A DNA stretch of 51,912 nucleotides from positions 1 through 51,912 of the forward strand of contig CANKBX010000002.1 in the NCBI GenBank assembly GCA_947480055.1. The letters run 5' to 3'. Position 1 is the stretch's first letter. Each line of letters starts with the position of its first letter. Shown here piece after piece: positions 36,422 to 46,057 of the stretch. This stretch comes from Planctomycetaceae bacterium (GTDB lineage: Bacteria; Planctomycetota; Phycisphaerae; Phycisphaerales; SM1A02). A program made the position numbers and the translations under genes. Below the pieces are notes generated by a model. The model was given only the letters and a program-made list of their open reading frames with translations, did not search any database and was not told the DNA's origin.

Positions 36422-37488
36422 GCTATGGTGATTTCCTTGTCCAAGAAAACATCTTGAACAGCGTTCAGCAACTTCACGCCATCGACCATTGGTTTCTGGA
36501 ACGCCTTGCGACCCGTGATTAAACCGGTTCCGCCAGCGCGCTTATTAATCACCGCAGTGCGCACGGCCTGCAACAAATCATCGCTGCCAGAAGCGCCACC
36601 AGAATTAATCAGACCAGATCGACCGCCGTAGCAATTCAGCACTTGATAGCGCGTGAGATCGATCGGATGGTCGGTGCAGAGATCGGTGTAAATGCGCGGA
36701 TCAAATTTTCCATAACTGGAGTTGCCCATGTTCAACGCCTCGTAGCCGCCGTTCAATTCCGCCTGCTTTTGCTTGATAATGTCGGCTTCAATGGTGACGC
36801 CCAAATGATTGGCCTGACCCGTGAGATCGGCGCTGACATGGAAATCTTTTCCAGAAGTTTTGAAAGCGGGATTGCGCAAGTAGCACCACAAGAACGTGCA
36901 CATACCAAGTTGATGCGCCTCATAAAATGCGTTGGCCACCTCGATGATTTGACGATCGGAATCCTCAGAGCCAAAATAAATCGTCGCGCCCACGGCGGCG
37001 GCGCCCAAGTTCCACGCCTCTTTGACCGAGCCAAACATGATCTGCTTGAACTGGTTTGGAAACGTCAACAACTCATTGTGATTTAGCTTCACAAGAAATG
37101 GAATTTTGTGCGCGTACTTTCGGCTCACCGAACCCAGCACACCAAATGTTGTGGCGACGCCGTTGCAGCCGCCCTCCATGGCCAACTTGATGATGTTTTC
37201 GCCGTCAAAGTAAAGCGGATTCTTGGCGAAACTTGCCCCCGCCGAATGCTCAATGCCCTGATCAACTGGAAGAATGCTCATGTAACCGGTGCCCGCAAGG
37301 CGGCCGTGGTCGTAGAACGATTGCAGATTGCGCAGCACTTGCGGATTGCGATCCGAACCCATCCAAATTCGATCGACAAAGTCCGGACCTGGAAGATGCA
37401 AAAGTTTTTTGTCCACTTTCGCCTTGTGCGTCATCAAACCCGCGGCTTCGGCGCCCAAAATTTCAGATGTCTTGCTGCTTGTTGCCAT
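36418..37488 (-). CDS. class I fructose-bisphosphate aldolase
   Basis: A 356-residue enzyme of the DeoC/FbaB-type class I aldolases, which split fructose 1,6-bisphosphate by a Schiff base. Blocks: [13 protein letters not shown] near residue 77, [39 protein letters not shown], and the late [16 protein letters not shown] phosphate-binding loops. The exact Schiff-base Lys was not assigned. The ATG at 37488 has an AGGAG site 7 nt upstream, so a longer reading that adds about 97 residues was rejected. Overlap with a lipoprotein gene downstream is likely incidental to function. Confidence 0.9.
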
Positions 37489-37586
37489 AGTGTTGCTCCT
37501 GTTGGCTGAGAATGTACCCGACATTTTGCAACCGATGCGCGGCGGCGAAATGAATTGATTCACCCGCTTGTAGTAGGCTTGAAAGC

Positions 37587-38585
37587 ATGCGCGTTTACGC
37601 AGGCATTGACGAGGCGGGCTACGGACCACTGCTTGGCCCGATGACTGTCGCATGCACGGCTTGGAGCACAGATGAAGCGTTGGGCATGTGGCCCGATTTG
37701 TGGAAGGCGCTTTCCGGCGCGGTTTGCAAGCGCCCCACGGATCACAAGGGCCGCGTTGCGATTGATGATTCCAAGACACTCAAGGGCTCCAAGGAATCCA
37801 AAACGCATCCGCTGCGAAACTTGGAGCGCGGCGTGTTGAGCACGCTTGACGCCATGACGCGCCACACGCGCGCCAAAGAAATCGATCTATTTCCGCTGAA
37901 AGAAAGCGATTTTATAAAGTTGCTTGGATGCGGTCCCGCCGACGCCCTGCCGTGGCACAAGGATTTGCCCACCACCATGCTGCCTGTCGCCACCACTGGC
38001 GACGAGTTGCGCATCGCGGCCAATCGCATGCATCTTGCATTTGAGGAATCCGGCGCGCGCTTGCTTTGCAATCGCTGCACGATCATTGAGCCGGAGGAGT
38101 TGAATCAATTTTCCAAAGCCACCGGAAGCAAATCGGCGGTGAGCGAGTTGGCGCTGCTGCGTCTGCTATGTGAGTTGCGCGAAAAATTTGCGGATGTGGA
38201 ACTCTGCGTGGCGTGCGATCGGCAAAGCGGGCGAACGCGTTATCTCAAGCCACTGCAACGCGCGTTTCCAGAGGCCATGATTCGCATTCATGAGGAGAAC
38301 GACCGCGAAAGTCGCTACCAAGTGATTGATGGAAAGCAGAACATGTTTATTTCTTTCGAAGCTGAATCCGAGCAACGACATTTACCCGTGGCGCTGGCCA
38401 GCATGACGGCGAAATATGTGCGCGAATTGAGCATGCGCAGAATGAACGCATTCTTTGCAAATCTGCTGCCTGGAATTGCTCCCACCGCCGGATATGTGGA
38501 AGATGGAAGGCGATTTCTTGAGGTAATTCGACCGCATTTATCCAAGTGGGGCTTGGAAATCGATCGTTTGGTTCGAAACTTTTAG
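37587..38585 (+). CDS. divergent RNase HII-like protein with large insert
   Basis: A 332-residue protein. Its N-terminus [14 protein letters not shown] (Asp8, Glu9) and IDDSKTL match RNase HII, which removes ribonucleotides from DNA. The region [15 protein letters not shown] matches the ASIxAKVxRD motif, but with Glu in place of the final Asp. [15 protein letters not shown] may supply the third acid. Standard RNase HII is about 200 residues; here 130 more lie between the first motif and the rest (about residues 70-190), with Cys-rich text ([10 protein letters not shown]). TAGGCT (37574-37579) is 7 nt before the ATG, so the mRNA may be leaderless. Activity is not certain. Confidence 0.75.
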
Positions 38586-38650
38586 CGTGAGAGCGATTTC
38601 TTCGCCGCCCCATGAAGCCAAAATTAAGGGTTTCCTAGCCTTTACAACGC

Positions 38651-38680
38651 TTGACCTGAACCCCCCAAAATGCCTACTCT
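38651..38680 (+). promoter_or_regulatory. putative fusA promoter
   Basis: TTGACC (38651-38656), an 18-nt spacer with a C-run and TACTCT (38675-38680) stand about 98 nt ahead of the fusA ATG. It is the best pair in the 193-nt gap behind the RNase HII-like gene. Confidence 0.4.
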
Positions 38681-38778
38681 CTTCGATTCTTCACCGCAGG
38701 CGTCTTATGCGGATGAAGTGGAATTCTGGACGCACGCACACTTTTACACGCCCCGACATTGGGGCAGACGAGCTACAC

Positions 38779-40893
38779 ATGCCCATTGATCTGAACAAGG
38801 TTCGAAACATCGGAATTTGCGCCCACATTGACGCTGGCAAGACCACCGTGACGGAGCGCATTCTTTTCTACACCGGAAAGATTCATCGCATGGGTGAAGT
38901 GCATGAAGGCACCGCCACCATGGACAGCCTTGAAGAAGAGCAGAAGCGCGGCATCACCATTCAAAGCGCCGCGACAACTTGCCCATGGGAATGTGAGGGC
39001 GTTGAGTACAAGGTGAATTTGATCGACACGCCGGGCCACGTGGATTTCACAATTGAAGTGGAACGATCGTTGCGCGTACTTGACGGCGCGGTCGCCGTGT
39101 TTGACGGCAAGGAAGGCGTTGAAGCGCAAAGCGAAACCGTGTGGCGCCAAGCTGATCGCTACGGCGTTCCGCGTTTGTGCTTGATCAACAAGATGGACAA
39201 ACTTGGCGGCGACTTTGATTTCTCCTTCGGCAGTTTGAAGGCGCGCTTGGGCGCAAACGCAATCGCCATTCAAGTTCCAATTGGTGGCGGCGCAACTTTC
39301 AAAGGCATCGTTGATTTGATGCGCATGAAGGCCATGTACTGGAATCCAGCCGAACAAGGGAACGAAATTAAAGAGACCGAAATCCCCGAGGATTTCCTTG
39401 AAACTGCGCAGAAGTGGCGCACCCAAATGGTGGAAAATATCGCCGATCTTGATGACTCCCTCACGGAGAAATTCTTGACGGATCCTGCCACCATCACCGT
39501 GCCTGAATTGAAGGCCGCGCTTCGCAAGGCAACAATTGCCCTGAAGTGCGCGCCAGTGATTTGCGGTTCAGCGCTGAAGTACACCGGCGTGCAGAAAATT
39601 CTGGACGCGGTTGTGGATTACCTGCCCTGCCCAACGGAACGTCCGCCAGTTGAAGGAGTGGATCCAAAAGATATTTCAATTAAACTTTCCCGGCCGCACA
39701 GTGAAAGCGCGCCGTTCTCCGCATTGGTATTCAAAGTGGTTAGCGACGTGGCTGGCAACTTGACCTACCTGCGAATTTATTCCGGCAAGTTGACCAAGGG
39801 CAGCCGCGTTCTCAATCCAGGAAATGGTCGACGTGAAAATGTCAGCCGCCTGTATGAAATGCACGCGCAGAATCGCACCGCTCTTGACGAGACCGGCACC
39901 GGCCAAATCGTGGCCGTGGTTGGTTTGAAGGATTCGTTCACGGGCGACACATTGTGCGACCCTGATCATCCGATCGTGCTTGAGCGCATGGTGTTCCCGG
40001 AGCCAGTTATTTCCATGAGCATCGAGCCAAACACCGCCGACGACAAGAAGAAGTTGGGCGAATCGCTCACCATCATTCGACGCGAGGATCCTTCATTCCG
40101 CAGCAATTACAACGATGAAACGGGCGAAACCATCATCAGCGGAATGGGTGAATTGCACTTGGAAATCATCAAGAACAAGTTGGTGCGCGACATGAAGGTG
40201 AATGTGACCGTTGGCAAGCCACGCGTGGCCTACCGCGAAACAATCACTGGAACCGCCAAGGACATTCGCGGTCTGTTTAAGAAGCAGTCCGGTGGTCGCG
40301 GTCAATACGGCGACGCCGTGGTGACCGTTTCACCAATGACCAAGGAAGAAGCCGACGCTGAAGAATTGGTGATGAAGAATGGCGTTGTCTTTGAAGACAA
40401 GGTCAGCGGCGGATCCATTCCACGTGAATTTATTCCAAGCGTGGAGTACGGCGCGCGACAAGCGGCCGCCAGCGGAATTCTTGGTGGCTACCCAGTGATC
40501 AACGTGCGTTGCCAACTTGTGTTTGGTTCATACCACGATGTCGATTCAAGCCAGATCGCGTTTGAACAAGCGGGCGCACTTGCGTTCCGTGAAGCATGCA
40601 CGCGCGCCGGCTTGGCTTTGCTTGAGCCAATTATGAAGTTGGTCGTGACAACACCTGACGAATTCTTTGGCAACGTGGCCGGCGATATCGCCAGCCGTCG
40701 CGGTCAAATTATTGACAGCGAGTTGCGCGGCATCACCCGAATGATCACGGCGGAAGTTCCGCTCGCTGAATTGTTCGGCTACACCACCACGTTGCGCAGC
40801 ATGACCCAAGGTCGCGCTTCAAGCGTGATGGAACCTGCCACATATCGCATCATGCCTGAGCGCTTGAAGGATGAAGTGTTGGCGAAGGCTTGA
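38779..40893 (+). CDS. fusA: elongation factor G
   Basis: A 704-residue GTPase that drives ribosomal translocation. G1 AHIDAGKTT, G2 GITIQSAATT, G3 DTPGHVD and G4 NKMD are in order, followed by domains II-V; the IV-domain tip is near GGRGQYGD and the C-terminus carries YTTTLRSMTQGRASS. The ATG at 38779 matches the family start; 64 codons of open frame upstream are not EF-G-like and were excluded. Its own site is weak (GACGAG). A strong terminator follows 42 nt after the stop, inside ribD. Members of this phylum may have more than one EF-G copy, so this need not be the only one. Confidence 0.97.
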   Translation: MPIDLNKVRNIGICAHIDAGKTTVTERILFYTGKIHRMGEVHEGTATMDSLEEEQKRGITIQSAATTCPWECEGVEYKVNLIDTPGHVDFTIEVERSLRVLDGAVAVFDGKEGVEAQSETVWRQADRYGVPRLCLINKMDKLGGDFDFSFGSLKARLGANAIAIQVPIGGGATFKGIVDLMRMKAMYWNPAEQGNEIKETEIPEDFLETAQKWRTQMVENIADLDDSLTEKFLTDPATITVPELKAALRKATIALKCAPVICGSALKYTGVQKILDAVVDYLPCPTERPPVEGVDPKDISIKLSRPHSESAPFSALVFKVVSDVAGNLTYLRIYSGKLTKGSRVLNPGNGRRENVSRLYEMHAQNRTALDETGTGQIVAVVGLKDSFTGDTLCDPDHPIVLERMVFPEPVISMSIEPNTADDKKKLGESLTIIRREDPSFRSNYNDETGETIISGMGELHLEIIKNKLVRDMKVNVTVGKPRVAYRETITGTAKDIRGLFKKQSGGRGQYGDAVVTVSPMTKEEADAEELVMKNGVVFEDKVSGGSIPREFIPSVEYGARQAAASGILGGYPVINVRCQLVFGSYHDVDSSQIAFEQAGALAFREACTRAGLALLEPIMKLVVTTPDEFFGNVAGDIASRRGQIIDSELRGITRMITAEVPLAELFGYTTTLRSMTQGRASSVMEPATYRIMPERLKDEVLAKA

Positions 40894-40911
40894 CCTTTCG
40901 CTGACGGCGCC

Positions 40912-42093
40912 ATGCCGAAGATCACACTGAACACGATCCGCCCCGATGTCCAAATTGGGGCGGATCTTTGGCTTTTTTGGCTGAAAGTTGCGGCGCGACT
41001 GGCGGTGCGTGGGCATGGAAATGTGGAGCCAAATCCAATGGTGGGTTGCGTGATTGTGGACGCCAAAAAGAATCTGGTCGGCTGGGGATATCACCGCAAG
41101 ATTGGCGGCGCGCACGCCGAGGTGGAGGCGTTGAAACGCGCTGGCGCAAAGGCCCGCGGCGCCACGGCGATAGTGACGCTGGAACCGTGCGCGCATGTTG
41201 GCCGCACACCGCCGTGCGTTGACGCGCTGAAGAACGCGGGCGTGGCGCGCGTGGTGTACGGATGCGCGGATCCAAATCCAGATGCGGCGGGCGGCGCGGG
41301 AAAATTGCGCGCGCATGGAATTGAAACACATTTGTTGGAGTGCGACGAAACGCGCGAGTTGAACGCGCCGTTTGTGAAACGCGTGCGCACTGGTTTGCCG
41401 TGGGTGATGGCCAAGTGGGCGCAAACTGTTGATGGCTGCGTGGCTACTCGCGACTACGATTCCAAGTGGATCAGTTGCGACAGAAGCCGGCGCATGGTGC
41501 ACCGCGAACGCGGACGAGTGGACGCCATATTGACTGGCATTGGAACAGTGATGCACGATGATCCGCAACTGACGGCGCGCGAAGTGCGCCATCGAAGAAA
41601 CGCGATTCGGGTTGTGATTGATCCCGAGCTGGCACTGCCGCTGACCGCGGCGTTGGCGCAAACCGCGCGTCAATACAAAACGGTTGTGGCCACGTTGGCG
41701 AAATCCTTTTCAGATCGGTCCGAGCATCGGCGCGCCTTGGGCGACATGGGCGTGGGATGCATGAAGCAGCACTCGGATTTTCGTGGACTTTTGGCTGCTT
41801 TACGCAAGGAATATGGAGTGTCCACGGTTCTGTTGGAGGCCGGCGGAGGCCTGACTGGTGAATTACTCAAGGAAAATTTGATCGACGAGGCGTGGGTGTT
41901 TGTTGGTCCAAAAGTATTGGGCGACCGCGAGGCCATCCACCCAGCGCGCGGACTTTCACCGCTTGCGATTCATGATTCGATTTCGGTGCGATTGCTTTCG
42001 GTGCGTCGACGCGACCAAGACGCCCTTCTGCATTATCGATTTGAGGATCCAAAGAGCGCGGGCTCTATTGGAAACGCCACCGTGTCGGGATAA
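40912..42093 (+). CDS. ribD: riboflavin biosynthesis protein RibD (deaminase/reductase)
   Basis: A 393-residue bifunctional enzyme. The N-terminal deaminase has the zinc triad His in HAEVEAL and two Cys in EPCAHVGRTPPC; the C-terminal reductase (about 160-370) has the MAKWAQTVDG and GIGTVMHDDPQL segments. It converts the pyrimidine after GTP cyclohydrolase II action toward the lumazine precursor. The ATG at 40912 is the only good start, 18 nt after fusA with no clear ribosome-binding site. Codons 8-25 form a terminator hairpin and U-tract (40935-40978), yet they also encode the helix WLFWLKVAARLA. The last 61 nt overlap the convergent DUF4340 gene. Confidence 0.92.
   Translation: MPKITLNTIRPDVQIGADLWLFWLKVAARLAVRGHGNVEPNPMVGCVIVDAKKNLVGWGYHRKIGGAHAEVEALKRAGAKARGATAIVTLEPCAHVGRTPPCVDALKNAGVARVVYGCADPNPDAAGGAGKLRAHGIETHLLECDETRELNAPFVKRVRTGLPWVMAKWAQTVDGCVATRDYDSKWISCDRSRRMVHRERGRVDAILTGIGTVMHDDPQLTAREVRHRRNAIRVVIDPELALPLTAALAQTARQYKTVVATLAKSFSDRSEHRRALGDMGVGCMKQHSDFRGLLAALRKEYGVSTVLLEAGGGLTGELLKENLIDEAWVFVGPKVLGDREAIHPARGLSPLAIHDSISVRLLSVRRRDQDALLHYRFEDPKSAGSIGNATVSG
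40935..40978 (+). terminator. intrinsic terminator of fusA, inside ribD
   Basis: GATCCGCCCC (40935-40944) and GGGGCGGATC (40957-40966) form a perfect 10-bp stem with a 12-nt loop, followed by TTTGGCTTTTTT. This is a textbook intrinsic terminator, 42 nt after the fusA stop, but it is also the start of the ribD coding region. Confidence 0.85.
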
Positions 42094-43373
42094 ACCCGCG
42101 TGAGATTTCCGCCATCGTTGGCGAGCCAACGCCCGGTGGAATCCTTTCCAAGCGTCACTGAGATGGTGGATCCGTTGGAGAGCGCGACGGCTAGTTTGGC
42201 CACAACAAGATTTTCGGGAATGGATTGCGTTGCCATGTCGCAAGCGCGTGCGGTGCAAAGAGTTTGTATCAACTCGCGCACTCTTTGCATGTTCGCGGGC
42301 CGCTCCGCTTGGTCCGGAATTGAAATACTCCACGCCGTGACGTTGCGCGTTAGGTTGGCGCGAAGTGTCGCGTTTGGATTTTGCAACGCGATGGATTTAA
42401 TTTCGGCGGGATCCACACCCAGTATTGTGGAGTCAATGAAAGCGGCGCTTGGAGGAAAAAGCGTGGAAAGCGAGCGTTTTTCAAGCTGAAATACGCCAGG
42501 ACGATCGCGACGCTTTCCAAATCGAACCCCGGGCCCGGCGGGACCATCCCCACCAATCTCCAACACCTCGTCGGTGATCGCGCCCTTGGAAACATCAAGC
42601 GAGCGGATGGTGATCACGGCGGCTGGTTGCGCCAAGCCAAACAGCGCGAGATCTTTGGGCGCGTCATCCACGATGCCATCATGTTCAAGCCGCGCCACAG
42701 CTTCAAGAAAATCCGCGACGGCGTTGTTGTCCGCGCGCGCCTCTATGGGCTCAATCAAAAACCATCGACCATCTTTTTTCTCAAGCGCAACCTCCAGACG
42801 CTGAGTTCCAGAATTGGCCTGCACAATCACCCGATCACTTGCCGCGCCAGATCGATCAAATAATTTCGCGCCCCGAAGTTGGACTGGATCTCCCTCCACA
42901 AGAAGTTGATGCAATTCGATTGAGCCTGGACCTCCAAGTTTGGTGTCCACATTCTCAAGCCACGCAAGACCCGCGGGATGACTTTTGCCAACACGCAGCG
43001 TGGCACTTCCGCTTGGCCAAACAACTTTTACGCGGGGTGCGGATTCATTCAATCCCGCTCTCGTGGGAAGTTTCTCAATCGGGCTGGCTTGAATCACGCG
43101 CGCCTGCGCCATAGCCACAAGCAATGCGTGTATGGCCGCTGGATCAGCGGGTTGCTCGTAGGGTTGAGTTTGCATCCATGCGTCCCCTTTACGCTCAAAT
43201 CGCAGTGTTCTGCCGTCTTTTTGCGCTTCAATGGTGTTGACCAAGTCAACAGGAATTTCCGCCAACAGTTGCGATTCGCTGGCGCTATTTCCATTGATGC
43301 GCACAAGCCAACCAACCATGATCATCACCACCACCACCAACCAAGGCTTCAAGGCTCGAGCGATACTTTTCAT
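42033..43373 (-). CDS. DUF4340-domain protein of the Gld-type ABC operon
   Basis: A 446-residue protein with an N-terminal hydrophobic anchor (about residues 12-28, PWLVVVVMIMVGWLV) and a long extracytoplasmic part built of two similar halves. Text such as WMQTQPYEQPADPAAIHALL and GRWFLIEPIEARADNNAVADFL repeats the same pattern of the DUF4340 family. Such genes are often found beside ABC transporters with a GldG-like subunit; the role is unknown. The ATG at 43373 overlaps the upstream stop by ATGA. The last 61 nt overlap ribD on the opposite strand. Confidence 0.8.
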   Translation of the reverse strand: MKSIARALKPWLVVVVMIMVGWLVRINGNSASESQLLAEIPVDLVNTIEAQKDGRTLRFERKGDAWMQTQPYEQPADPAAIHALLVAMAQARVIQASPIEKLPTRAGLNESAPRVKVVWPSGSATLRVGKSHPAGLAWLENVDTKLGGPGSIELHQLLVEGDPVQLRGAKLFDRSGAASDRVIVQANSGTQRLEVALEKKDGRWFLIEPIEARADNNAVADFLEAVARLEHDGIVDDAPKDLALFGLAQPAAVITIRSLDVSKGAITDEVLEIGGDGPAGPGVRFGKRRDRPGVFQLEKRSLSTLFPPSAAFIDSTILGVDPAEIKSIALQNPNATLRANLTRNVTAWSISIPDQAERPANMQRVRELIQTLCTARACDMATQSIPENLVVAKLAVALSNGSTISVTLGKDSTGRWLANDGGNLTRVYPDTVAFPIEPALFGSSNR

Positions 43374-46057
43374 TGACGTCGCCTCGATTTCCAAATCATG
43401 CCGCCAGTGAGCGACAGACCAAATGGAATCACGACTAGCGCGACCGATCCCAAAAAGATGCGCGTGAATTGTGAGAGTTGTGGAATGCGGCCGGTATCCG
43501 AAACCGTCGCGATGGGATCGCTCGCCGAAAGCCATCGCAGCACGCCTATGAGAAGATCGCGATTGCCGGGATATCGAAGCGCGCCTTGCTCGCCATCAAG
43601 AATGCCTCCATGCAATGTGAGCAACCATGAGAGTCCACCAGATATGGCGACACGCGCGCCATCATCACGTTGCGCGGCAACTAGTACGGGAATTGCCTGC
43701 GTAAAAACTTTTCCAACTGGAGCCGCATCCATTGTGCGGCTGGCCACGCGCGGATCAGTTTCAATCCATCTTTGCCCCGCTGGTGGAATTGATTCCATGG
43801 GGAATGCGTTCCATGACTCCGTAGTCTTGATCTCGATTGGAATTGGCATGGGCCACAATATATTTTCATTGGCTGCCGCAAGCGTGGCTGGATGCGCGGA
43901 AGACGAGCCCGCAAACTCCACAAAACTGCGTATTTCCTTGGTGTTTTCAGATTGTGTGACAAGATCCAACACCACTTGGCCAGACTTTGCGCGCAGGCCT
44001 GCGAAAAGTAAAAGATCCGCCCACGGATCGCTGATACCCATGGCGGCGAAAGGATTTGGCGTTGCGATCACCAACACACTTTCATTCTCAGCAAGAATGC
44101 CACGCGTGGCCGCCAAGAGAGCGTTCTCCGCGGGGTCTGGTTCTTGCGCGCTTCGATCCAGTGGCGGGATCACAATCCACACGCGCTTGCCCGCCTGCGT
44201 GAGCGGCCGCGCACCCTTGGATGGATTCCATTCTTGAACCTCCATCCGAGCCGCGCGAAGCGATTGAACAATCAATGACAAATCGCCACCGCTGGAGACG
44301 CTTTCAAGCGGGGACTTTGTTTGTGAATGAACAATGGTGACAACAATGCGCGGCGCTCCTTGAACGCAACGAATTGCCTCGGCAAGGGCGAGCTCCGTGG
44401 CGTCCACGCTGGCGTTCATTTGCCAAGCGGGAATTGCGGCCACTCCATTGGCTCCACTGATAATCAGCGTGGGCGGATACCGCATCGCGGATGTGACTTC
44501 CGAAAGCCGAAGTGGCGGCAGTTGATCGATTCGATCTTGCGCGCCCTTGGCGAGCTCCGCTTGAGCGGCGCAATTTCTCTCCGTCTGGCGCGCGCTGCTG
44601 ATCAATGCGGGCGTTCCAGATTGAAGCCTTTTTGCCGCAATATCAGAGACTTCTTGCAGCGTGCTGGACCACCATTTCAGTTCGATCGCCAATTTTCGTC
44701 CCGCCCCCTCAATATTTCCCAGCGGCTTATCCGGTGTCGCGCTGGCCATCTGGGAAATCGCTTCACGTACGACGCGTCCATCTGTTGCCGTCTTTTCCAT
44801 AGCCGCGGCGCACATCTCTAGTTTGGAACGCGCGGCATCATCTTTGGCAAGAGCCTTGAGCAGCGTTTGAATTTGCGACGCGGCGGCGTCGGAAAAACTT
44901 TCAATTGAGCGCAGCGCCGTCATGCCTTTGGTGATCGCATCACGCCATGCGTTCACATTTTTTGATTCACTTGCCTCGATCCTCTCAAACATCGCCGCGC
45001 TTTGCTCCGCGTCAGCGAGCGCAAGCGAATCAAATTCTTGGCGGCCAATGGAAGTTCCGTCGGACAAAACTTCACCCGCAAGCCGAGCCATGATTCCGCG
45101 CGCGTTGCGCAATGCGCCAGTGTCGGAATTTCCCGCGCTCGACAATAGCGTCACGTTCAAGGGCGGCGAGCATGTTGCGATGAACTGCTTGGTGGCGGGC
45201 TGCAACGAGCCGCTACACAGAGTCGCGGCTTCCACTCGCAACACTGGCGCGTCCGAACCTCGAAGCGCGACCACCGTGGTGGAGATCGCCGCGAACACTC
45301 CAACGCACATGATCATTCGCAGCAATCCAGCGCGTTTTGAAGGCGTTTCTTGATCGCACGCCGCCCACGCGCCGGCGCACCAAGCGCAGCCAACACCCAT
45401 TGCGAGCAATGACAATCCACTGCCAAGATCAAATGATCCACGCGTGAAATCCTCGCCACGACGCAGTGGATCCAACGCGAACGCGGCCGAAGCGATCATT
45501 GGCCAAGTGAACGATTGACCGCCACGGCAGAGCGCGATCCACGCCGCGATGCCAGTGAGGGACGCGATAATCGCGCCCGCGCTTGATCGAACCACAACTC
45601 CCGCGAGCATGCCCACGCCCGCGGCCGCGATGATGAGCATCCAAAGTCCAAACGCGCCGCACAAGATCACGCTCCAAGATGGACTGGACACGCATGACAA
45701 CAAAAAAGTCTGCAACACGATTGGAATAATCAGCGCCACGCTCGCCACGGATATCGCGGCAAACTTTGCGTGCAAAATTGTGGCTACATCAATGGGCGAG
45801 GCGAGCGTGAAGTCCCAAGTTCCAGCGCGCCGCTCGGCTGGCACACTGCGCGCCGCAAGAGCGCACGCCGCGGCACCAACGCACCACAGTGAAATTCCAA
45901 TGGCGCGCGACAAGTCCGCCACTGCTCCGCTCAACAATCCGCCAAATGCAAATCCCATGCCCGCGGGAATCGCCACGGCGGCGGCCACTCCCCATATCAA
46001 CGGAGTGGCGACAAGCGAGCGCAACTCTCTGCTGAAACTCAGGGCGAATCCGCTCAA
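43370..46057 (-). CDS. fused ABC-2 permease and GldG-like accessory protein
   Basis: An 895-residue protein. Residues 1-235 carry about six spans of an ABC-2 permease (GldF-like), followed by another span near 250, a long extracytoplasmic region (270-855) with coiled-coil-like helices and GldG/ABC_transp_aux-like text (LIISGANGVAAIP, RVWIVIPPLDRSAQEPDPAE, VLVIATPNPFAAMG), and a last span at about 865-888. GldF and GldG are separate in Bacteroidota gliding machinery; here they appear fused. Coupled by ATGA to both the ATPase upstream and the DUF4340 gene downstream. Gliding itself is not implied, since planctomycete relatives exist without it. Confidence 0.8.
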   Translation of the reverse strand: MSGFALSFSRELRSLVATPLIWGVAAAVAIPAGMGFAFGGLLSGAVADLSRAIGISLWCVGAAACALAARSVPAERRAGTWDFTLASPIDVATILHAKFAAISVASVALIIPIVLQTFLLSCVSSPSWSVILCGAFGLWMLIIAAAGVGMLAGVVVRSSAGAIIASLTGIAAWIALCRGGQSFTWPMIASAAFALDPLRRGEDFTRGSFDLGSGLSLLAMGVGCAWCAGAWAACDQETPSKRAGLLRMIMCVGVFAAISTTVVALRGSDAPVLRVEAATLCSGSLQPATKQFIATCSPPLNVTLLSSAGNSDTGALRNARGIMARLAGEVLSDGTSIGRQEFDSLALADAEQSAAMFERIEASESKNVNAWRDAITKGMTALRSIESFSDAAASQIQTLLKALAKDDAARSKLEMCAAAMEKTATDGRVVREAISQMASATPDKPLGNIEGAGRKLAIELKWWSSTLQEVSDIAAKRLQSGTPALISSARQTERNCAAQAELAKGAQDRIDQLPPLRLSEVTSAMRYPPTLIISGANGVAAIPAWQMNASVDATELALAEAIRCVQGAPRIVVTIVHSQTKSPLESVSSGGDLSLIVQSLRAARMEVQEWNPSKGARPLTQAGKRVWIVIPPLDRSAQEPDPAENALLAATRGILAENESVLVIATPNPFAAMGISDPWADLLLFAGLRAKSGQVVLDLVTQSENTKEIRSFVEFAGSSSAHPATLAAANENILWPMPIPIEIKTTESWNAFPMESIPPAGQRWIETDPRVASRTMDAAPVGKVFTQAIPVLVAAQRDDGARVAISGGLSWLLTLHGGILDGEQGALRYPGNRDLLIGVLRWLSASDPIATVSDTGRIPQLSQFTRIFLGSVALVVIPFGLSLTGGMIWKSRRRQ

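Follow-up and report, generated by a model that had tools for sequence, protein, structure and literature searches.

A putative fusA terminator, probably read as early codons of ribD, in a clade of Planctomycetota

The hairpin that follows the elongation factor G gene, fusA, in the stretch of planctomycete DNA analysed here (51,912 nt of contig CANKBX010000002.1; hereafter the window) is most plausibly the fusA intrinsic terminator, with the reading frame of the next gene, ribD, extending back across it in the clade to which the window belongs. The features concerned are collected in Table 1. In profile searches the fusA product scored 898 bits against TIGR00484 (cut-off 659) and the ribD product 285.9 bits against TIGR00326 (curated cut-off 156.35), which places the latter in the RibD family; the window's assembly (82% complete) gave this single ribD match. 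The fusA start was taken as ATG 38779, the mechanical ORF starting earlier, at GTG 38587. The ribD frame is open only 3' of the in-frame fusA stop, and ATG 40912 lies 18 nt 3' of that stop. Near relatives of the window in one genome collection are metagenome-assembled Planctomycetota. Upstream of fusA lies an RNase HII-like ORF of 332 aa (window 37587–38585) with a Pfam match to residues 5–30 only, and such an ORF also precedes fusA in several relatives.

Table 1. Features at the fusA–ribD junction (window positions)
Feature	Position	Strand	Remarks
fusA (elongation factor G)	38779..40893	+	Stop TGA 40891–40893; TIGR00484; Pfam EF-G domains
H1, 11-bp hairpin over the fusA stop codon	40878..40905	+	Arms 40878–40888 and 40895–40905
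ribD (bifunctional deaminase/reductase)	40912..42093	+	TIGR00326; canonical start ATG 40912
Predicted RibD N-terminal extension, residues 1–21	40912..40974	+	Little conserved as protein; low pLDDT for residues 1–15
H2, putative 13-bp terminator stem-loop	40935..40966	+	ribD codons 8–19; fold, covariation, terminator score
Interrupted U-tract TTTGGCTTTTTT	40967..40978	+	ribD codons 19–23

The second of the two hairpins, H2, has arms at 40935–40947 and 40954–40966 that form 13 bp, 8 of them G-C, around the loop GTCCAA, and it runs from the third base of ribD codon 8 to the first base of codon 19. Its stem starts 41 nt past the fusA stop and 23 nt after the first base of ATG 40912, and the U-tract behind it is broken by GGC. 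H2 thus has the features by which an intrinsic terminator is recognized, a stable, G+C-rich stem-loop with a U-rich tract immediately behind it. The original prediction had placed the hairpin correctly, but its 10-bp GC-rich stem and U-tract in codons 8–25 need correction to the dimensions given in Table 1. The segment 40905–41000 folds with a z score of −4.19 (0 of 200 shuffles were equally stable), and H2 itself has a predicted stability of −24.8 kcal/mol, an nT of 4.06 and a terminator score d of 31.7. As a control, the score was applied to 452 kb of the same genome, with genes called by a crude in-house finder that called both fusA and ribD correctly in the window. Values of d of at least 30 were found in 8 of 322 post-stop windows, H2 among them, vs 0 of 309 gene-interior windows, and values of at least 0 in 20 of 322 vs 1 of 309. 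Terminator-grade signals are therefore scarce in this genome, and the presence of one 41 nt behind fusA is meaningful. Of ten near-stop hairpins with a T-rich tail in the same sample, two lay wholly within the next predicted gene; the other such hairpin, a weaker one, is at L085:19198–19223, 42 nt past a stop. The corresponding counts for genome G123 (6 hairpins near stops, 0 inside the next gene) were left out because the finder had called an opposite-strand ORF across fusA and ribD there.

Comparison within the genus, for which 16 genomes were available, 15 of them with ribD and all 15 used (the window included), points in the same direction. Each of the 15 has a hairpin with d of at least 10 starting between +26 and +47 past the fusA stop, and in each the stem is followed by a tail of at least moderate T content (nT 3.0–5.1). 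In ten (G000, G151, G139, G114, G156, G103, G155, G090, G131 and G123) the hairpin is embedded in the ribD frame as it is in the window, and in all of these 135 nt, with no gaps, separate the fusA stop from the RibD PNP motif. The H2 stem is intact in eight of the ten; a single pair is disrupted in G103 and two are disrupted in G123. In G123, three pairs are altered on both sides in a compensatory manner. An alignment of the nine distinct rows has 97.4% of its cells paired, a value that none of 500 shuffles equalled, and a slid-structure control gave at most one doubly changed pair; as all three double changes fall in G123, the shuffle test speaks for one lineage. The run of six Ts is found in eight of the ten and is absent from G131, which has TTTTT after the stem, and from G123, the tail of which is poor; for G103 and G123 the score d is no more than about 10. 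The remaining five genomes have a stem of 10–11 bp with a TTTC or TTTTTC tail, starting 26–34 nt past fusA. In G039 and G068 this hairpin precedes the ribD start, and in G146, G152 and G154 it stands directly behind fusA, followed by an insert of about 1.6 kb, the RibD core lying about 1.66 kb further on. A hairpin common to all 15 genomes and outside the ribD frame in five of them is most simply explained as a fusA terminator. The comparison, together with the enrichment of the score behind stop codons, bears out the two central claims made earlier for this DNA, namely that the hairpin is a fusA terminator and that hairpin and ribD reading frame overlap. The stem conservation in relatives that had been proposed as a check is also present, its compensated pairs being those of G123. 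Relatives in which ribD starts downstream of the stem had been named as evidence against the claim; the five genomes just described are of this kind, but they differ from the window in spacing.

A second lineage with the embedded layout was found in another genus (G022, G056, contig C13 of G067 and G098; L163, L164, L165 and L180, respectively). Contig C13 groups with g23 even though the G067 assembly has another fusA; it is therefore probably mis-binned, and was counted as g23-like. In this lineage the ribD start, ATG in three members and GTG in G056, lies 5 nt past the fusA stop, the stem begins 19–22 nt after the first base of that codon, and a T-rich tail and then the RibD core follow. One inner stem pair is altered on both sides in G098, the contig of which ends just past the junction and was read separately from the survey described below. 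In the six pairs of this lineage, pS was 0.11–0.36 for the stem codons, which offer few sites, vs 0.53–0.73 for fusA.

Outside the genus, 64 loci were surveyed. Adjacent fusA/ribD pairs were identified by eye in the gene coordinates, the survey covering genomes with both genes on one contig. Fourteen loci had no pair; the other 50 included one duplicate (L064 = G050), and the 49 distinct pairs together with G122, G070 and G124 gave 52 distinct junctions. Twenty-one of these (g35, g37, g42 and G005) are closely spaced pairs that lack a terminator, and in a further 21 no terminator-grade hairpin was found; six have a terminator before the ribD start and four a terminator-grade hairpin behind it. 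Attenuation of ribD is therefore not generally needed. Three of the last four are G022, G056 and C13 of G067. The fourth, G018 (L150), has a 14-pair hairpin with a TTTCG tail and a score of 32.4 deeper in the conserved ribD codons, which may be a chance feature and was treated as such because G109, of the same genus, has no comparable hairpin. On a fusA tree of 58 rows, 10 of them embedded, the embedded state needs two changes, and the well-supported branches force two. Two origins of the layout are the simple reading of this tree, although one gain followed by several losses may also account for it.

Whether the overlap is real depends on where ribD starts, and we regard ATG 40912 as very probably the true start. 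It is the only ATG, GTG or TTG of ribD upstream of the conserved core in the window, and in eight of the ten embedded-layout genomes of the genus no such codon occurs from the 40912 site to the core. The sequence ATG CCG AA is identical in all ten, and the 18-nt spacer before it differs from that of the window at no position in G131 and at four in G123, pairs for which the flanking coding segments have a pS of 0.36–0.64; the conservation of the spacer may be due in part to H1. On reading the window sequence, no Shine–Dalgarno-like sequence was seen upstream of this ATG. A different arrangement, which we consider unlikely, is that the terminator stands in an untranslated leader and that ribD starts non-canonically further downstream, at CTG 40981 or at an ATT in the 3' arm, the overlap of hairpin and ribD then being an effect of annotation. 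Position 40981 is codon 24 of the annotated frame, which reads CTG in eight of the ten genomes and ATG in the other two, G131 and G123. Outgroups of the genus also have Met there; G123 has a further ATG within the 3' arm of H2, the equivalent of codon 24 in the second lineage is ATG in G022, G098 and C13 of G067, and the predicted extension is little conserved at the protein level. However, CTG starts are rare, and replacement of ATG by CTG would be surprising in a true start; the alignment of solved RibDs begins at residue 22, which is upstream of codon 24. Together with the invariance of the start and the few changes in its spacer, these points led us to favour ATG 40912. In the second lineage, moreover, it is the upstream start that swaps between ATG and GTG, as a start codon might, and the equivalent of codon 24 is CTG in G056.

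Taking ATG 40912 as the start, the RibD product would carry an N-terminal extension. Homology to RibD begins at residues 22–25, both in profile matches and in solved structures, and an AlphaFold model built on a 12-row alignment (mean pLDDT 76) has pLDDT below 50 for residues 1–15, a helix at residues 11–34 and a block mean pLDDT of 95 for residues 21–30. The stem therefore encodes the extension and not the conserved core. The earlier suggestion that part of the deaminase helix is encoded here holds for the U-tract, which reaches the conserved helix, but not for the stem. Codon constraint was considered as proof of coding for residues 2–21 and failed, the extension drifting at the protein level: in codons 2–8 pN exceeded pS in three of the four pairs compared and fell below it in the G131–G123 pair, and the stem codons were mixed, with pN above pS against G103 and G131 and below it in both G123 pairs. 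In ribD codons 47–150, pN was well below pS in all four pairs.

Our working hypothesis, which we hold to be rather probable from the sequence comparisons, is that H2 is a fixed, leaky fusA terminator that lowers RibD relative to EF-G. In general, RibD is needed in small amounts and EF-G is abundant. The spacer between fusA and ribD is short in this clade, and with ATG 40912 as its start ribD would begin ahead of the terminator, so that hairpin and U-tract would be read as ribD codons 8–23. RNA polymerase leaving fusA would mostly halt near 40974–40978, and a minority of read-through events would yield a fusA–ribD mRNA from which RibD is translated. The sequences themselves display the hairpin, its position, its conservation with compensatory changes, its terminator-like score and the lack of a second canonical start. 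We infer the termination, the read-through as the supply of ribD and the use of ATG 40912 alike; with ribD starting at 40912, every ribD mRNA would have to cross the terminator and only read-through could supply RibD. For the same reason a promoter of ribD's own within fusA, which had been invoked as a way around the terminator, is of no help, because the hairpin comes after the start codon and an mRNA for ribD begun inside fusA must cross it. A scan for sigma-70-like promoters found no site on the + strand in 36977–43837, the total of 6 sites being at the chance level of 5.6 expected. Studies of the tR2 terminator in E. coli report that with tR2 30 bp behind an AUG, translation costs only about 10% of termination efficiency, and that a stop-to-stem distance of more than 30 bp gives near-maximal termination of about 0.9 (PMC4824070). 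Set against the distances of 23 and 41 nt here, these values support, by extrapolation across phyla, a terminator that would be mostly working but leaky. As in the tR2 construct discussed below, use of the ribD AUG implies that non-stop fusA mRNAs would be formed. A terminated fusA mRNA with an AUG and no stop codon would be a cost to the cell, unless that AUG is weak. The window's genome contains a tmRNA match above the family cut-off.

It seems quite unlikely that H2 is instead a regulated attenuator, either one that answers a flavin-type signal or one that is melted by a fusA ribosome restarting at ATG 40912, in which case ribD would be made in step with translation. Attenuation of riboflavin synthesis had been suggested for this hairpin and finds no support: there was no match to an FMN aptamer or to any other Rfam family in 38000–43000 at E≤1, and folding of all ten embedded-layout genomes of the genus revealed no strong competing antiterminator fold, the 5' arm forming, with the 3' arm removed, three alternative pairs in seven genomes, six in G131 and seven in G103 and G123. 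In favour of a regulated attenuator, the ribD start follows the fusA stop closely in both lineages (by 18 nt here and by 5 nt in the second), each lineage has its stem 19–23 nt beyond the start, and H1 is conserved across the stop codon. H1 is paired in all ten embedded-layout genomes of the genus, with one-sided changes only; its single-sequence support is weak, 168 of 2000 spacer shuffles being as stable in G000 and 27 of 2000 in G123. A similar fold straddles the fusA stop in G152. Against a restarting ribosome, it has been reported that in E. coli a ribosome rarely draws level with the polymerase within the first 100 bp of a gene (PMC4824070) and that structures just past stop codons lower re-initiation (PMC7518266). 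A structure other than a terminator, insulating the fusA stop from re-initiation (an RTS, the term used for a stable mRNA structure near a stop codon) or protecting the 3' end of the fusA mRNA, is very unlikely. In its favour, G123 keeps most stem pairs despite its poor T-tail, and such structures are reported behind 18–65% of genes in 128 bacterial genomes (PMC7518266). Against it, the start to be insulated precedes the stem and is probably the one that ribD really uses, and all 15 loci of the genus have the T-containing tail.

It is tempting to go beyond the fixed, leaky terminator that we prefer and to speculate that the embedding is a selected device that has arisen twice, in which the fusA ribosome restarts on ribD about 20 nt before the stem and so gates the escape of the polymerase by the closeness of translation, the terminated non-stop mRNAs being cleared by tmRNA. 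We give this idea little credence; if it were true, RibD output would report the status of translation through the gene for EF-G. Leaving such a device aside, a terminator that doubles as codons of a vitamin-biosynthesis gene appears an awkward compromise, and compensatory changes in the stem are nonetheless present in both lineages. The family also offers natural comparable sets, consisting of the close gene pair, the intergenic terminator and the embedded terminator. With these it can be asked by what means bacteria adjust the relative amounts of two proteins that are not needed equally, and how they cope with the non-stop mRNAs that arise from an abundant transcript.

In the literature searched, no paper on a terminator at ribD in planctomycetes was found, and the narrow sample covered contained no natural case in which the terminator of a translation gene is conserved and makes up codons of the next gene in two lineages. 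One similar system is engineered. In plasmid W48 in E. coli, tR2 was likewise placed just within the downstream ORF, where termination stays efficient and is said to yield non-stop mRNA (PMC4824070); that ORF is synthetic and short, whereas the fusA–ribD case is natural and conserved and stands before a full enzyme gene. Among natural systems, the macromolecular synthesis operon of E. coli also has a Rho-independent terminator behind a translation gene, between rpsU and dnaG, which partly controls the rpoD transcript (PMC7863352), but that terminator, T1, is described as lying between genes, and the one reported here lies inside the coding region of the gene that follows. In B. subtilis, a typical Rho-independent terminator within the coding region of brfA generates non-stop mRNA, and the arfA mRNA of E. 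coli is subject to RNase III cleavage and/or termination (PMC6881298). The brfA terminator acts late in brfA itself and leaves about 62 of the 71 codons; here, unlike in brfA, the terminator falls within the opening 67 nt of the following gene, and truncation would give a peptide of about 21 residues. H1 resembles an RTS in its position, as that structure is described (PMC7518266); H2 differs in having a terminator tail and in sitting behind a start codon. More broadly, RNA 3' ends within ORFs have been reported in large numbers in E. coli (PMC7815308), and in Methanococcus maripaludis, an archaeon, termination has been reported inside 38% of operons and linked to unequal expression (PMC10450193). 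Terminators within coding sequences (brfA and arfA) and terminators between cistrons (rpsU–dnaG) are thus known, and the combination of the two at the fusA–ribD junction is a variant of these.
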